Positions 6,282 through 25,458 of a stretch of 64,000 nucleotides of DNA are shown in pieces. Below the pieces are notes generated by a model, which made no database searches, was not told where the DNA came from, and was given only the letters and a program-made list of their open reading frames with translations. The stretch is taken from the NCBI GenBank assembly GCA_013298895.1, contig JAAFJM010000002.1:70427-134426 (forward strand). Direction: 5' to 3'. Source of the DNA: Bacteroidota bacterium (GTDB taxonomy: Bacteria > Bacteroidota > Bacteroidia > UKL13-3). Position 1 is the stretch's first letter; each line of letters starts with the position of its first letter. The position numbers and the translations under genes are program-made.

Positions 6282-6314
6282 TTTTTTATATTTTATTGAA
6301 AAAACTTTTTTTTA

Positions 6315-7103
6315 TTATTTACAAACAACTTGTTTATCAAACCTAACATCTATGGATTTATACTTATTCCACCCTACTCTACTTAGGCCTTCTTTATAAA
6401 AAACCATAAGCTTTTCGAACTTGGCTTCCAATTCGTTAGCACCACCAAATAAAATTTGATGGTTACCAATTTTTGGAATTAAAACAAACTCATTATCCCT
6501 TGTTACAAATATCTGTTCTATCTGTGCTTTCCAAAATATTTGTTTATCAACATAAGAGGCTATTTTATATAGTTCATTAGCTACAAAACTATACACTGTA
6601 TCGCCTGGCTTACTCCTTTCAAAAATATTACCATTAGCAATGGGCACATGAGCTGTAAATTTATCAGATGTTTGAAATTTCACCCCAAATTTATCCATAT
6701 AAAAATTAACACCATTATAGCGATAAAGCCTTAATATTGGCTCGCGTTGGTGAATTTTAACATATACATTCCCACTCAAATCGTTATACACTTTAGCTTC
6801 TTTCAAAAAAGTATTTTCGGTTAATTTTTTTTCTAAATAACTGGTATTCAAATCTTGCACCTTGGCATTGGCTATATCGCTTAAATTGCCATTTTCAGTA
6901 ATGGTTTTTACCACCTTTTTACGGTTAAAAAACTCAATATTTTCTGGGTAAATTTGAATAATAACCTTTTTTACAGCCAATTCTTTTTCTTGATTTTTGG
7001 TAAATGAAACCGCAAAAACCAAACCGCAGCCAAGCACAAGCCAAATAAATATCAGGCCTAACTTTTTAAACATTTTGATTTTTCTATCACTTATCCACTT
7101 CAT
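6315..7103 (-). CDS. ftsQ: FtsQ/DivIB-type cell division protein
   Basis: 262 residues. A short basic cytoplasmic start, one membrane segment (LGLIFIWLVLGCGLVFAVSF, about 15-34) and a periplasmic domain with a POTRA-like first part: LNTSYLEKKLTENTFLKEAKVYNDLSGNVYVKI-type spacing and VKIHQREPILRLY, typical of Bacteroidota FtsQ. It links FtsA/FtsZ to the septal synthase FtsW-FtsI. Assigned by position as much as by sequence, because FtsQ is weakly conserved. ATG 7103 is chosen; ATG 7073 would shorten the cytoplasmic part by 10 residues. The 118-base gap to murC is the longest in the cluster and holds two palindromes (7128-7147, 7183-7213). Confidence 0.9.
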   Translation of the reverse strand: MKWISDRKIKMFKKLGLIFIWLVLGCGLVFAVSFTKNQEKELAVKKVIIQIYPENIEFFNRKKVVKTITENGNLSDIANAKVQDLNTSYLEKKLTENTFLKEAKVYNDLSGNVYVKIHQREPILRLYRYNGVNFYMDKFGVKFQTSDKFTAHVPIANGNIFERSKPGDTVYSFVANELYKIASYVDKQIFWKAQIEQIFVTRDNEFVLIPKIGNHQILFGGANELEAKFEKLMVFYKEGLSRVGWNKYKSIDVRFDKQVVCK

Positions 7104-7182: not shown

Positions 7183-7213
7183 TTTCGTTTCGTCCGATAG
7201 CTTTCGAACGAAA
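7183..7213. repeat. Second palindromic element in the murC-ftsQ spacer
   Basis: Arms TTTCGTT (7183-7189) and AACGAAA (7207-7213) enclose an imperfect palindromic core containing CCGATAGC at 7194-7201. The same CCGATAGC string forms half of the perfect palindrome found inside murG (8995-9012), suggesting one repeat family with variable arms. It lies 9 bases past the murC stop. Confidence 0.5.
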
Positions 7214-7221
7214 TGATTTTT

Positions 7222-8625
7222 CTATTTCTCTAAAATTTCTTTGATTGGTTTTATCAATAAATCAATATCGCCTGCGCCTAAAGTTAAAAACACTTTTGGT
7301 TGATTGGTTTTTACTGCTTCCAACAGTTCGGCATTACTTACCAAATGCTTCTTACAATTAATTTTATCAAAAATTATTTTTGAAGTAACCCCTTCAATTG
7401 GCAATTCGCGGGCAGGATAAATATCCAACAAAAATACCTCGTTTGCAATTGATAAACTTTCTGCAAATCCGTCCACAAAATCGCGGGTACGAGAAAACAA
7501 ATGAGGTTGAAAAGCCACTACAATTTCATTTTCAGGATACATATTTTTAACTGACGAAATAATTGCCCTTAACTCTTCAGGATGATGGGCGTAATCGTCA
7601 ATATAAATTTGATTTTCTGATTTTATAATGTATTCGAACCTACGCTTAACACCTTTAAAACCAAGCAATGCAGCACGTAATTCACTCTCGGTTACACCAC
7701 TCATTAAACAAGCTGCACTTGCTGCTACTGCATTTTCAACATTATGCAAGCCTGGTATCCCTAATTGTAAACCAGTTATTTCAGTTCCTTTATAAACCAA
7801 ATCAAATGTATAATCACCTTTGGTAATTTTTATATTTTTAGCATAAATATCCGCTTCTGTTTGAATAGAATAAGTAAGATAATTTACTGATAAATCATCA
7901 ATTAAATCAAGTTCTTTTTTTATGATAAGCGTTCCGCCACTTACTAATTTATTGGTATAATCTAAAAACGATTTTTTCAATTCATGGTGTTCGCCATAAA
8001 TATCCAAATGGTCAGCATCGGTTGAAGTGATGATGGCAATGCTTGGATGTAATGTTAAAAACGAACGGTCAAATTCATCAGCTTCAATTACAACAAATTG
8101 TTGACTTGTTGATTTAGTGATTTGGTGATTATTTATTGAACCATTATTAGCCAACAATAAATTGGTATTATAGTTAGTTGAAATTCCACCTAAGAAGGCA
8201 TTGCAATCAACTGAACTTTGTTTTAAAATATGGGCAATTAAAGTTGATGTAGTAGTTTTTCCATGAGTACCAGCTACTCCAATTGTTTGGTGATTTTGGC
8301 TGATTAAACCTAAAACCTGTGAACGTTTTAAAATATTGAATCCATTATTTTTAAACCAAGCCCACTCTTGGTGATTAGCAGGAATAGCAGGAGTTAACAC
8401 TACCAAACAGTTTTCAGATGACAGTTGATAGTTAATAGCCTTTTCAACATTATCATCAAAATGAATATCAATTCCTTCTTTAATCAATTCGTTGGTTAAA
8501 GCTGTGGGCGTTTTATCATAACCCATTACTTTTATACCTAAATGGTTAAAATATCGTGCAATGGCACTCATGCCTATACCACCAATACCAAGGAAATACG
8601 CTGTTTTTATATTTTTTAAATCCAT
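7222..8625 (-). CDS. murC: UDP-N-acetylmuramate--L-alanine ligase MurC
   Basis: 467 residues, cytoplasmic ATP-dependent ligase adding L-Ala to UDP-MurNAc, the first amino-acid step. N-terminal Rossmann motif GIGGIGMSAIA (15-25), ATP-binding GTHGKTTTSTL near 118, the Mur signature VVIEADEFDRSFL near 178, and the C-terminal domain with YIDDYAHHPEEL and TLGAGDIDLL. Residues ~160-176 are a Asn/Gln/Thr/Ser-rich stretch just before VVIEADE that I do not expect in MurC; see the repeat entry 8098-8145. Four bases separate it from murG, implying coupled translation. Start ATG 8625 lies a dozen codons ahead of the dinucleotide-like fold. Confidence 0.98.
   Translation of the reverse strand: MDLKNIKTAYFLGIGGIGMSAIARYFNHLGIKVMGYDKTPTALTNELIKEGIDIHFDDNVEKAINYQLSSENCLVVLTPAIPANHQEWAWFKNNGFNILKRSQVLGLISQNHQTIGVAGTHGKTTTSTLIAHILKQSSVDCNAFLGGISTNYNTNLLLANNGSINNHQITKSTSQQFVVIEADEFDRSFLTLHPSIAIITSTDADHLDIYGEHHELKKSFLDYTNKLVSGGTLIIKKELDLIDDLSVNYLTYSIQTEADIYAKNIKITKGDYTFDLVYKGTEITGLQLGIPGLHNVENAVAASAACLMSGVTESELRAALLGFKGVKRRFEYIIKSENQIYIDDYAHHPEELRAIISSVKNMYPENEIVVAFQPHLFSRTRDFVDGFAESLSIANEVFLLDIYPARELPIEGVTSKIIFDKINCKKHLVSNAELLEAVKTNQPKVFLTLGAGDIDLLIKPIKEILEK
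8098..8145. repeat. Low-complexity insert within murC
   Basis: Read on the + strand this stretch consists of near-repeated units of the type TTGTTGA / GATTTAGTGA / TTTGGTGA. It encodes residues ~160-176 of MurC (Asn, Gln, Thr and Ser) immediately ahead of the conserved VVIEADEFDRSF. It resembles intergenic simple sequence rather than coding sequence, stays in frame, and lies in a surface-loop position between conserved blocks. Confidence 0.45.
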
Positions 8626-8629
8626 GAAA

Positions 8630-9736
8630 TTACTTCATTAATTTGATTACTTCATCTACTATTAACTCGGCTGCATTAGGCATGGCAAATGTTTTTATTT
8701 GATTAACCAATTCAGCTTGTTTATTTTCATTGGTTATTAAGTTTAACGTTTCACTAACCAAGTTATTTTTTGCATCTACATCTTTTACCAAAATAGCTGC
8801 ATTTTTATTTACCAAGGCCATTGCATTTTTTGTTTGATGGTCTTCAGCTACATTAGGCGAAGGCACCAAAATAACAGGCTTAGCCACTTGTGCTAATTCT
8901 GCAATTGAAAGTGCCCCTGCTCTCGAAATTACAACATCAGCTGCTGCATAAGCTAAATCCATCTCGTAAATGAAATGTTGAATGTTGAATGTTGTCCCGA
9001 TAGCTATCGGGAGTTGGATGTTATCTGCCTTATCAAAGTTTTTGCCTGTTTGCCAAATAAGGTTTACGTTGGCTTCTTTTATTTTATCTAATCCTTCATA
9101 AATGCTTTCGTTGATAGTTCTTGCTCCCAAGCTTCCGCCTATTACCAAAATGGTTTTTTTATTAGCATCTAACTTAAAAAACTCCATTGCTTGTTGTTTT
9201 TTGCTCGACACATCCAACAAATCTTGACGAATTGGATTACCCGTTTTTACCAACTTATTAGCTGGAAAAAACTTCTCCATATTATCGTAAGCCACGCAAA
9301 TGGTATTTACTTTATCTTTTAATATTTTATTGGTGATACCCGCATACGAGTTTTGCTCATGTATTAGAGTTGGCAGTTTTTTTAACGATGCTGCGTAAAG
9401 GACCGCACTACTTGCATAACCTCCAAAACCAATAACTGCATCGGGTTTGAACTTATTGATAATTCCAAACGATTTTAAAATACTTAAAACAACCTTAATA
9501 GGAAACAATAAATTTTTATACGTAATCCTGCGTTGCAATCCACTAATCCACAATCCTTCTATTTTATAACCCGCTTTAGGAACTTTTTCCATTTCCATTC
9601 TATCGCTAGCGCCCACAAATAAAAACTCCACTTCATTGTTGAGTCTTTTTTGCAATGCTTGTGCTACCGCAATGGCAGGGTAAATATGGCCTCCTGTTCC
9701 TCCTGCGCTAATTATTATTTTCTTTTTGCTATTCAT
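8630..9736 (-). CDS. murG: UDP-GlcNAc--undecaprenyl-PP-MurNAc-pentapeptide GlcNAc transferase MurG
   Basis: 368 residues, GT28 glycosyltransferase on the inner face of the inner membrane that converts lipid I to lipid II. N-terminal GGTGGHIYPAIAVA (12-25) binds the acceptor; IGFGGYASSAVLYAA near 103, HEQNSYAGITNKIL near 125, and the C-terminal donor-binding block AAADVVISRAGALSIAEL near 263 with PSPNVAEDHQTKNA. Residues ~238-255, between the TGKNFDKA strand and HFIYEMDLAYA, are encoded by a palindrome flanked by short tandem repeats and look like an in-frame insertion (8972-9024). All conserved motifs remain, so it should be active. Lies between ftsW (30 bases) and murC (4 bases). Confidence 0.97.
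   Translation of the reverse strand: MNSKKKIIISAGGTGGHIYPAIAVAQALQKRLNNEVEFLFVGASDRMEMEKVPKAGYKIEGLWISGLQRRITYKNLLFPIKVVLSILKSFGIINKFKPDAVIGFGGYASSAVLYAASLKKLPTLIHEQNSYAGITNKILKDKVNTICVAYDNMEKFFPANKLVKTGNPIRQDLLDVSSKKQQAMEFFKLDANKKTILVIGGSLGARTINESIYEGLDKIKEANVNLIWQTGKNFDKADNIQLPIAIGTTFNIQHFIYEMDLAYAAADVVISRAGALSIAELAQVAKPVILVPSPNVAEDHQTKNAMALVNKNAAILVKDVDAKNNLVSETLNLITNENKQAELVNQIKTFAMPNAAELIVDEVIKLMK
8972..9024. repeat. Palindromic repeat read in frame inside murG
   Basis: TCCCGATAGCTATCGGGA at 8995-9012 is a perfect 18-bp palindrome. On its left lie three GTTGAAT-like tandem units (8977-8994) and on its right GTTGGATGTT. The whole stretch encodes about 17 residues of MurG, including LPIAIGTTFNIQ, in a gap between conserved blocks. 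The CCGATAGC half recurs in the murC-ftsQ spacer. This pattern fits a small REP-like element captured by a coding region. Confidence 0.6.
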
Positions 9737-11054: not shown

Positions 11055-12398
11055 CTATAAACTTCTAACCGCATTTTTAAACATACGGCCACGTTCTTCA
11101 TAATTTTTAAATAAATCAAATGAAGCGCAAGCAGGCGATAACAAAACACATTCGCCAGCTTTAGCCAATTGTTTTGCCACTTTTACAGCTTCGTTAGCAC
11201 TGGTAGTATTTACAATCATGTCTACATCTTTACTAAATGCTTCATGAATTTTAGTATTATCTAAACCCATACAAACAATGATGCGCACTTTTTCTTTTAC
11301 CAAATCTTTAAGCATGGTATAATCATTGCCTTTATCGGTTCCACCAGCAATCCAAACTACTGGTTTGTCCATACATTCTAAAGCATACCAAGCAGCATTT
11401 ACATTGGTGGCTTTGGAGTCGTTAATAAATTGTATGCCATCAACCGAGGCTACATTTTCTAAACGGTGTTCTACATTTTTAAAATCGGTTAGCGCTTCGC
11501 GAATAACTTCATTTTTAATTTGTAATGCCTTGCCAATTAAGGCAGCGGCAAGCGAGTTATAGGCATTATGCCTACCTCTAAGTGCAAGTTGTTGTGTTAA
11601 CATTGTGAATGGATTTAATTGATTGTTTGATAATTGCACAAACATGGTTCCATCCATTACAGTTGCCCCAGCTGCAAGACTAGGGTTTAACGAGAATGGA
11701 ACCATTTGTGCGTTTATATTTGTTGATTGCAAGTTTGCGGTTGTTAATTCATCATCGGCACAATACAAAAAGTAATCTGCGGCAGTTTGATTTTGTGTAA
11801 TTCTGAATTTTGAGTTTATATAGTTTTGTATTTCGTAATTATATCGGTCTAAATGATCGGGTGTTATATTGGTTAATACAGCAATGTTTGCATGAAATTC
11901 ATACATATCATCTAATTGAAAACTGCTTATTTCTAACACAAAATAATCGTATTGTTTTTCGGCAACTAAGCGCGCAAAACTCACACCAATATTACCTCCA
12001 CAGGCTACATTTAAACCTGCTTTTTGTAATAAATGATATACCAATGAAGTTACGGTAGTTTTGCCATTGGTTCCAGTTATAGCAACAATATATGCATTGG
12101 TGTAACGAGCTGCAAACTCAATTTCACTAATAATAGAAATATTCAAAGAACGAAGCTTTTTTATAAGCTCATTTTTTTCTGGAATACCAGGACTTTTTAT
12201 AATTTCATCAGCATTTAAAATCAATGCTTCAGTATGTTGTAATTCTTCAAAAGCAATTGCATGCTGCAACAATTCCTCTTTGTATTTTTGAGGTATTGCT
12301 CCTTTATCTGACACAAATACATCAAAGCCTTGTTTTTTAGCTAAGATGGCTGCACCTGTTCCACTTTCTCCGCTTCCAAGTATTACTATTCGTTTCAT
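11055..12398 (-). CDS. murD: UDP-N-acetylmuramoyl-L-alanine--D-glutamate ligase MurD
   Basis: 447 residues. The N-terminal UMP-binding part opens with RIVILGSGESGTGAAILAKK; the ATP motif GTNGKTTVTSLVYHLL begins near 109; the carbamylated-Lys/Mg region VLEISSFQLDD is near 155; NITPDHLDRYN near 178; the C-terminal domain includes FINDSKATNVNA near 316 and LLSPACASFDLFKNYEERG, specific to MurD. It adds D-Glu to UDP-MurNAc-Ala in the cytoplasm. Upstream spacer to mraY is 86 bases and contains 14-bp direct repeats. Nothing is missing; length is normal. Confidence 0.98.
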   Translation of the reverse strand: MKRIVILGSGESGTGAAILAKKQGFDVFVSDKGAIPQKYKEELLQHAIAFEELQHTEALILNADEIIKSPGIPEKNELIKKLRSLNISIISEIEFAARYTNAYIVAITGTNGKTTVTSLVYHLLQKAGLNVACGGNIGVSFARLVAEKQYDYFVLEISSFQLDDMYEFHANIAVLTNITPDHLDRYNYEIQNYINSKFRITQNQTAADYFLYCADDELTTANLQSTNINAQMVPFSLNPSLAAGATVMDGTMFVQLSNNQLNPFTMLTQQLALRGRHNAYNSLAAALIGKALQIKNEVIREALTDFKNVEHRLENVASVDGIQFINDSKATNVNAAWYALECMDKPVVWIAGGTDKGNDYTMLKDLVKEKVRIIVCMGLDNTKIHEAFSKDVDMIVNTTSANEAVKVAKQLAKAGECVLLSPACASFDLFKNYEERGRMFKNAVRSL

Positions 12399-12401
12399 TT
12401 T

Positions 12402-12436
12402 TTAGTTCTTAGTTTTAAGTACTTAGTTCTTAGTTT
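12402..12436. repeat. 14-bp direct repeats in the murD-mraY spacer
   Basis: TTAGTTCTTAGTTT occurs at 12402-12415 and again at 12423-12436, a 21-base period. The first 13 bases recur at 18737 in the rsmH-mraZ spacer, and a related AGTTGATAGTTGTT type repeats with the same 21-base period before gldF (25422-25456, other strand). No coding potential. Confidence 0.5.
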
Positions 12437-17829: not shown

Positions 17830-18735
17830 TTATTTGTTCAATCGTTCTGCTATCCTTAATTTGGCGCTTCGCGATCGGTTATTTTCTTCTTGTTCCTTAT
17901 CGGTTGCTACTATTGCTTTTTTATTTAATGGATTAAATGGCCTGTTGATATTTCCAAAAAAATCTTTTTCCAAATCGCCTATTAAATTGCCGCTATTCAT
18001 GTAGTTTTTAACTAACCTATCTTCCAACGAATGGTAACTCATAATTACCAACCTACCTCCTGGCTTTATTAAACTACCACATTGCAAAAGCATTTTTTCT
18101 AGCACAGCTAACTCTTGGTTTACTTCAATGCGAATGGCTTGAAACACCTGAGCAAAAAATTTAAAGTCTTTGAACTTAGGCGCGTGATGCATCAATGCTT
18201 GCTTTAACTCACCAACTGTTTCAATATTTTTACCATTACGAGCAGCAATAATATCGGCAGCCATTTTTCGAGATTGATGCAATTCGCCATACTTATATAA
18301 TACGTTAGCCAAATCATCGGCTTTGTATTCATTTATAACCGTATGAGCGCTCAAAGATTGCGTTTGACTCATGCGCATGTCCAATTTAGCATCATCAAAA
18401 CGAATAGAAAAACCACGTTCACCTTCATCAAACTGATGAGACGAAACACCTAAATCGCCAAGCAAACCATCTACTTTATCAAAACCTTGGTATTGCACAT
18501 GATTTTTCAAAAACTCAAAATTTTGATCAATAAAAACCAAGCGTTCATCTTTAATTAAATTTCGTTTCGCATCTTCATCTTGGTCAAATGCAATCAACCT
18601 TCCTTTTTTGCTTAACTTATTTAATATAGCGCCACTATGCCCACCACCTCCATAGGTAATATCTACATAAACCCCATCAGGATTTATATTTAATGCATCT
18701 AAGCACTCGTTTAACATTACTGGGTTATGGTACAT
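17830..18735 (-). CDS. rsmH: 16S rRNA (cytosine(1402)-N(4))-methyltransferase RsmH (MraW)
   Basis: 301 residues. N-terminal YHNPVMLNECLDALN and SAM-binding VDITYGGGGHSGAIL (about 24-38), DGLLGDLGVSSHQFDEGERGFS-type block near 85-108, and RLVIMSYHSLEDRLVKNY near 242-260. It methylates N4 of C1402 in 16S rRNA. Second gene of the dcw cluster, 88 bases after mraZ and 9 before the FtsL-like gene. Full length; ATG 18735 lies two codons before the conserved HNPVML. Confidence 0.98.
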   Translation of the reverse strand: MYHNPVMLNECLDALNINPDGVYVDITYGGGGHSGAILNKLSKKGRLIAFDQDEDAKRNLIKDERLVFIDQNFEFLKNHVQYQGFDKVDGLLGDLGVSSHQFDEGERGFSIRFDDAKLDMRMSQTQSLSAHTVINEYKADDLANVLYKYGELHQSRKMAADIIAARNGKNIETVGELKQALMHHAPKFKDFKFFAQVFQAIRIEVNQELAVLEKMLLQCGSLIKPGGRLVIMSYHSLEDRLVKNYMNSGNLIGDLEKDFFGNINRPFNPLNKKAIVATDKEQEENNRSRSAKLRIAERLNK

Positions 18736-18736
18736 C

Positions 18737-18770
18737 TTAGTTCTTAGTTGATAGTTGTCAGTTGATAGTT
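18737..18770. repeat. Short direct repeats in the rsmH-mraZ spacer
   Basis: TTAGTTCTTAGTT (18737-18749) matches the murD-mraY spacer repeat, and AGTTGATAGTT occurs at 18746-18756 and 18760-18770. The rest of the 88-base spacer is further AT-rich near-repeats (AATTCAAAATTCAAC-like). Non-coding. Confidence 0.45.
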
Positions 18771-18823
18771 AATGATTTAAATGTTGTATTTAATTCAAAA
18801 TTCAACATTTAAAATTCAAAATT

Positions 18824-19282
18824 TTATTCCTCATTTTTCCTTTTACTCATTACCTCTTCGGCTAAAGCACTAAAGTCTTCTGGTTCGGCATTAAGCATGT
18901 TTTCGTACTCAGCTTTACTCCATATTTCCACTTTGTTTCCATAAGCTAGCAAAACCAAATCACCTTTTAAATCAGCATACTCTTGCAATGATTTTGGCAA
19001 TAAAACACGACTTGCAGAATCCATGTCTAATTTGCTTGCACCACGCAAAAAGTAACGTTTAAAATCGCGTTCTTTTTTAATGTAATCGCTCAACTTATTT
19101 ATCTCACCTGCTATGCTATCCCACTCATTAGAAGGATATAATACGCAGCATTTTTCGAAACCACGGTTAATAAAGAATGCATCCTTGGCTTCCGCAGGAA
19201 GTTGCTTTTTCAATGCCGCAGGGATTATCAGCCTGCCTTTGGCATCTAGTTTACATTCATATTCACCGTGTAGGTTTAGCAC
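18824..19282 (-). CDS. mraZ: Transcriptional regulator / division protein MraZ
   Basis: 152 residues with two SpoVT-AbrB-type repeats: the first opens GEYECKLDAKGRLIIPAALK (about 5-24), the second SKLDMDSASRVLLPKSLQEY (about 83-102). MraZ forms ring oligomers and represses the dcw operon through tandem boxes upstream. The start is GTG at 19282, giving MLNLHGEYE, which is the family's normal N-terminus. First gene of the cluster. Three AAAGTGG boxes with 10-bp spacing lie 44-70 bases upstream (19326-19352), so self-regulation is likely. Confidence 0.96.
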   Translation of the reverse strand: MLNLHGEYECKLDAKGRLIIPAALKKQLPAEAKDAFFINRGFEKCCVLYPSNEWDSIAGEINKLSDYIKKERDFKRYFLRGASKLDMDSASRVLLPKSLQEYADLKGDLVLLAYGNKVEIWSKAEYENMLNAEPEDFSALAEEVMSKRKNEE

Positions 19283-25412: not shown

Positions 25413-25421
25413 ACAACAATG

Positions 25422-25456
25422 AACAACTATCAACTGACAACCAACAACTATCAACT
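25422..25456. repeat. 14-bp direct repeats immediately before gldF
   Basis: AACAACTATCAACT occurs at 25422-25435 and 25443-25456, a 21-base period, separated by GACAACC. The second copy ends two bases before the gldF ATG. Same family, on the opposite strand, as AGTTGATAGTT in the rsmH-mraZ spacer. Confidence 0.5.
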
Positions 25457-25458
25457 AA

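Follow-up and report, generated by a model that had tools for sequence, protein, structure and literature searches.

The palindrome-bearing loop of murG

The window, the whole 64,000-nucleotide stretch of Bacteroidota DNA that was analysed, contains on its minus strand an intact murG gene, and one loop of the encoded protein is specified by a perfect palindrome lying against tandem repeats of a 7-bp unit. The features at this locus are the following.

8630..9736, minus strand: murG, 368 aa, intact frame (ORF; PF04101 match; PDB homologues 7d1i, 3s2u and 1f0k)
8995..9012: 18-bp perfect palindrome TCCCGATAGCTATCGGGA, encoding residues 242-247 (LPIAIG) plus one base
8974..8994, minus strand: heptamer array, CAACATT ×3 on the coding strand (AATGTTG on the plus strand), residues ~248-254 (TRF 7-bp period, 100% matches; lag-7 score 14)
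9013..9019, minus strand: leftover heptamer unit ATCCAAC on the opposite side of the palindrome, identified against the uninterrupted array of five congeners

By coordinates, the palindrome covers residues L242 to G247 and one base of the T248 codon, the first, with its 16-mer core at 8996-9011, and LPIAIG falls between WQTGK and HFIYEM. The predicted structure places the loop between two strands. Its mean pLDDT is 87.8 but drops to about 60 over residues 231-250; such low confidence is consistent with flexibility there without proving it. By the standards of the phylum, the length of the loop is unremarkable, because the MurG loops of distant named relatives (at most 60% identical) are equally long, and it is longer relative to its congeners only.

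Ten same-genus genomes, all draft assemblies and designated G000 (the genome of the window) to G009, display five states of this loop.

Palindrome within an array: G000, G006
Uninterrupted ATCCAAC array: G001, G002, G004, G007, G008
TTCGAAC array: G003
TTTAGAA/TTCGAAT array: G009
No array: G005

Relative to the uninterrupted array, the palindrome takes the place of a 3-bp spacer between units, for a net gain of 15 nt, or five residues, in frame. A sequence-only reading of this DNA had proposed that about 17 residues, comprising the palindrome and its flanking short tandem repeats, were a dispersed element inserted into an essential gene without breaking it. The palindrome (an exact match at 8995-9012 in an ORF that is open throughout) and the adjoining repeats (AATGTTG ×3 at 8974-8994) are both as described, and the gene is unbroken, with the palindrome in frame in murG of both the window's genome and G006. 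The proposed extent of the insertion is too large, given a net gain of only five residues over five congeners whose loop is otherwise similar, and the tandem repeats do not belong to the insertion, since palindrome-free relatives already have a heptamer array there. Arrival of the repeats together with the palindrome is rejected in view of the uninterrupted murG array of the congeners. The same reading had named, as evidence against itself, the same loop with unrelated DNA in close relatives; this holds by half, as the loop is present in them and in several its DNA is another heptamer array.

In a murG tree built without the loop, G000 groups with G003 (89% support) and G006 lies outside. Taken at face value, this tree, whose support is modest, would place the palindrome in the common ancestor of G000, G003 and G006, with subsequent loss in G003. 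When gaps are counted, 31 of the 78 columns that differ between G000 and G003 in murG reside within the loop block.

Dispersal of the palindrome

The 16-mer core occurs exactly three times in the 3.6-Mb genome, compared with zero for a reversed control, and at 31 places when up to three mismatches are tolerated, compared with one. The palindrome is thus not unique in its genome, and its earlier description as a dispersed element holds well, with multiple copies in its own genome, in congeners and in other genomes of the class. Five of the ten same-genus genomes, the window's own included, carry it (3, 1, 12, 1 and 9 copies; 26 sites in total). The full 18-mer is matched at all 26 exact sites, and three of these extend by one further base pair. 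Across the phylum, 24 of 296 sampled genomes carry the palindrome, in a count that leaves base composition uncontrolled; by row count, all 24 belong to the 73 genomes of the same class (own included), and none to the 223 elsewhere. Related palindromes also exist whose centres have changed relative to TCCCGATAGCTATCGGGA yet remain palindromic, such as CCCGAAAGCTTTCGGG and CCCGATTGCAATCGGG.

Within the window, a search of its whole length detects no second match to the 16-mer core at up to three mismatches, where shuffled sequences lead one to expect 0.04. One half of the palindrome had been said to recur in the murC-ftsQ spacer, and this is correct insofar as CCGATAGC is present between these genes at 7194-7201 (shuffles give a mean of 0.34, and at least three matches in 1 of 100). 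The surrounding sequence is not a copy of the palindrome, however, but an imperfect inverted repeat, which is at most a diverged relative of it. Two repeats near this position are listed here.

About 7188..7213: imperfect inverted repeat holding CCGATAGC, murC-ftsQ spacer (26 bp, 11 of 13 pairs, counted by eye)
6282-6337: tandem repeat with a 24-bp unit in 2.3 copies, at the boundary between ftsA and ftsQ

There is a link between palindrome sites and heptamer arrays. Of 54 sites (26 exact and 28 near, with both murG copies counted), 10 have flanking sequence that scores 8 or more at lag 7, compared with no more than 2 at any other lag from 4 to 13 and 3 at the harmonic lag of 14; at control positions, many of which are probably coding, the proportion is 8 of 322. 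Filled and empty palindrome sites can be compared at murG, purQ and rlmD. Upstream of purQ, a GCCA-type array is visible by eye in the ten genomes, and in G005 and G006 this array contains the palindrome. In the region upstream of rlmD, G000 and G006 have the palindrome, and the six others found do not.

Several further repeats were seen in passing. Several congeners (L213-L217) have a repeat with a 9-bp period (AATCTGTGA-like) in this same region upstream of rlmD. In G005, the palindrome at four loci (L047, L049, L050 and L053) forms part of a longer dispersed repeat, where it is flanked on one side by GTCCGC and on the other by GTCTCCCGACCAACC or a sequence close to it. Beside a Y1 transposase gene in the window's genome (L196 1915-2340; G000:C34, ~138.9-139.4 kb), another repeat is present twice, one version having TCCCGAAAGCTTTCGGGA between CAGTTGCTAA and AACTG and the other a short natural hairpin loop at that point, and the two versions form a within-genome filled and empty pair.

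Heptamer arrays within and between genes

Similar arrays can be found elsewhere in the window, both in murC and outside long ORFs.

8408..8438, minus strand: degenerate heptamer array in a murC loop, residues ~62-72 (lag-7 score 12; congeners have clear arrays of other units at the same site)
12393..12435: heptamer array, TTAGTTC-like, between murD and mraY (TRF and lag-7 scan of the window)
18735..18853: two heptamer arrays, TAGTTGA-like and AATTCAA-like, outside long ORFs
25415..25457: heptamer array, CAACTAT-like, outside long ORFs

The periodicity of the MurG loop extends beyond the genus. Within the family, 62 murG loci were collected, of which 60 could be parsed (L024 and L172 are omitted), and two of the 64 family genomes are absent (G065 and G066, in which murG is split between contigs). 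A lag-7 score of at least 9 is attained by 12 of the 60 loops, and no loop reaches this score at lags 4-6 or 8-13; 10 do so at the harmonic lag of 14 and one at lag 15. Codon shuffles reach the lag-7 threshold in 0.4% of 12,000 trials. In an earlier scoring, the omitted L024 displayed a clear array (score 16) and L172 none (score 2). No lag-7 array is seen in the MurG loops of more distant named relatives (0 of 79 parsed out of 80, L093 being omitted). The unit varies by species (CAACATT, TTCGAAC, CTTCAAA, CAGTCGA) and by genus, with CTTCAAA and CAGTCGA in one genus and ATTCAAC in another.

The murC loop behaves comparably. Lag-7 arrays are present in 13 of 35 parsed family loci (62 tried), with at most one at any other lag from 4 to 13, and their units include ATCAACT, AACATTC and ATTTCGA. 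Among the named loci, 1 of 68 parsed (of 80) has such an array, and in the same loop: at 3293-3325 of L131, from a distant named Bacteroidia MAG, an AAATCCG heptamer array occupies the equivalent MurC position. G002 and G008, which are about 1% apart, were aligned over 1240 columns that span the 3′ portion of murG and a portion of murC. They have 42 mismatches, of which 30 fall in a single 67-column block at the murC loop and the other 12 in 1176 columns; frame and length are unchanged across the block. The residues flanking it (DLGD or DNIE) are common to other congeners. Lag 7 is not prominent in a variable block of ftsW, where G009 scores 10 (as it also does at lag 11) and the other nine genomes no more than 6.

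Three tandem copies of TTCRAMM are matched 59 times in the ten congeners, compared with once for the reversed pattern, a control that may contain stop codons, so that the contrast inside genes is inflated. The matches collapse into 41 distinct arrays. Of these, 23 lie in ORFs of 150 aa or longer and 18 have no such ORF. The coding arrays are distributed over ten gene families, including four aminoacyl-tRNA synthetases, with Pfam in agreement for ten of the 23 that served as representatives. Six arrays are in an aromatic amino acid lyase, three each in PurL, IleS and HisS, two each in ValS and MenD, and one each in PheT, MurC, an M1 peptidase and an FAD-dependent protein. The lyase is presumably HutH, and the other names finer than the Pfam family are likewise presumptive. 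PurL has TTCAACA as its unit in G006 and TTCGAAA in G009, at equal residue position and length, and HutH orthologues likewise display unit replacement.

Despite these coding examples, period-7 arrays are mostly intergenic in the phylum. At the 80 named loci, 31 period-7 segments are not wholly within ORFs (16 kb lies outside) and 4 are inside (385 kb). A 464-kb sample of the window's genome, window included, contains at lag 7 19 segments outside ORFs (64 kb), 6 inside (400 kb) and 8 across an edge, and at lag 8 12, 3 and 3, respectively; at lag 16 there are 6 coding segments, equal to lag 7. Coding arrays in this genome are thus real but few, and the coding excess at lag 7 is modest.

Possible origins of the loop arrays and comparison with known repeats

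The explanation that we favor, at a probability of roughly 0.7, is that dispersed heptamer arrays occupy tolerant loops of essential proteins, where the unit is replaced while the frame is kept, and that one of them has taken up the palindrome, a second short dispersed element. Comparison among genomes shows arrays that are dispersed, sites that are shared, units that differ, differences that come in blocks and a frame that is retained. The murG loop would belong, as one of the coding cases, to a dispersed family of 7-bp tandem arrays otherwise mostly intergenic in the phylum. Such an array could be tolerable in a surface loop because three units make 21 bp, and a stop-free array can therefore be read in all frames as a seven-residue repeat. 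Comparison of murG and murC shows, and PurL and HutH orthologues also display, that the unit is replaced as a block between close species with frame, and often length, preserved. The replacement most likely is copied from another dispersed array, by template switch or ectopic conversion, or arrives by short-tract homologous exchange, and purifying selection for frame presumably follows. In the lineage of G000 and G006, comparison shows that the palindrome came to fill one spacer between units, converting CAAC-ATC-CAAC to CAAC-palindrome-CAAC (+15 nt), presumably by insertion. The modest coding excess in the window's genome and the MurG loop of G005, which displays no array, run counter to this explanation. 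A stronger version, in which an active process swaps 7-bp units among dispersed arrays, those inside essential genes included, and thereby rewrites loops of MurG, MurC and several aminoacyl-tRNA synthetases blockwise in frame, with coding repeats propagating themselves without an encoded mobile element, is one that we entertain only tentatively.

The patchy flanking residues of murC (DLGD or DNIE), shared as haplotypes across species, would also fit plain homologous exchange, and it is conceivable, if doubtful, that unit replacement consists of nothing but an exchange of loop alleles among congeners, without traffic between dispersed arrays. Within the genus, however, at least three units are found on similar flanks, and like units occur at unrelated genes, so a generating process beyond allele swapping is needed. 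If instead the repeated loop peptide were selected at the protein level, the DNA periodicity would be a mere consequence; loop lengths and flanking residues are indeed similar, and residues resembling IQH-TFNIQ recur in the genus. Yet the period is 7 bp and not 21, units differ at one and the same site, the frame and orientation in which the TTCGAA unit is translated vary from gene to gene (FEIRNSK, FRISNFE), and like units are found outside ORFs too, all of which makes a protein-level cause improbable.

As for the palindrome, its arrival in murG could have been an ordinary REP-like event in which a Y1 (RAYT-like) transposase moved it, with the heptamers as incidental targets. The genome contains six Y1_Tnp matches, one of them less than 100 bp from the nearer of two CCCGAAAGCTTTCGGG palindromes that form an inverted pair and another 0.6 kb from CCCGATAGTTATCGGG, and abutting 4-bp direct repeats are present at 4 of the 22 distinct exact palindrome sites, compared with 1.3% in mismatched pairs. 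All four of these direct repeats lie within heptamer arrays, though, which can generate such repeats themselves; the remaining three of the five Y1 loci scanned lack such a palindrome, and inspection by eye finds no GTAG or CGTC tag abutting the 18-mer at the 26 exact sites. Transposition of this type thus seems possible but rather unlikely. Less probable than any of these is a role for the palindrome in adjusting murG expression through an mRNA hairpin: a 7-bp stem with a 4-base loop is predicted (-9.8 kcal/mol, z -2.39), but the palindrome is missing from murG in eight of the ten congeners, its position is mid-gene, and no U tract follows it.

The wider interest of array-bearing loops, as favored above, lies in the mismatch between unit and codon. 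Because 7 bp is out of codon step, adding or dropping one unit within an essential gene should kill the cell, and yet related bacteria have different seven-base units at one spot, as if repetitive DNA kept reshaping the loops of vital proteins while leaving these proteins unbroken. Persisting, unit-changing arrays in MurG, MurC and tRNA synthetases would make the entry of repeats into protein loops, and the rewriting of those loops, directly testable, and natural before-and-after pairs about 1-5% apart are available. In one open-access library, where absence counts for little, we found neither a description of units turning over in essential genes nor a match to the 16-mer core or to the peptide and DNA strings of the arrays.

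Among known systems, the Rickettsia palindromic elements (RPEs), as described in PMC10969869, are likewise dispersed palindromic repeats, found in frame in unrelated metabolic genes, but they measure about 150 bp rather than 18 bp. Here, as judged from ORFs and by eye, only one of the 22 distinct exact sites, that in murG, apparently falls in a conserved gene, whereas an RPE would be in frame in several unrelated ones. The REP/RAYT system (PMC3733652) shares with the present case short palindromic repeats, some of them within genes, and Y1 transposases in the genome; it differs in that the element here is an 18-bp perfect palindrome at which no GTAG/CGTC tag is seen and whose possible association with a transposase is confined to one or two places.

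The closest resemblance is to heptanucleotide repeats. According to two reports, TAACTGA repeats are found in Beggiatoaceae, Cyanobacteria and some Bacteroidetes, with cases where repeats finish one murG ORF or lie close to the end of a purC (PMC4679880), and GGGAATC and GGGGA(C/T)T repeats in Xanthomonas and Nostoc (PMC4692102). Like these, the arrays described here have a 7-bp unit and are tandem, dispersed and mostly intergenic, and two hallmarks of the class, a 7-bp tandem unit above chance and over-representation outside coding regions, are observed. Simple repeats in mid-gene are reportedly suppressed in prokaryotes (PMC4692102, citing others). Unlike heptanucleotide repeats, many of the present arrays are situated mid-gene in conserved enzymes, and whereas one favored unit is reported for the TAACTGA repeats (PMC4679880), the unit found here at a single site varies between congeners.
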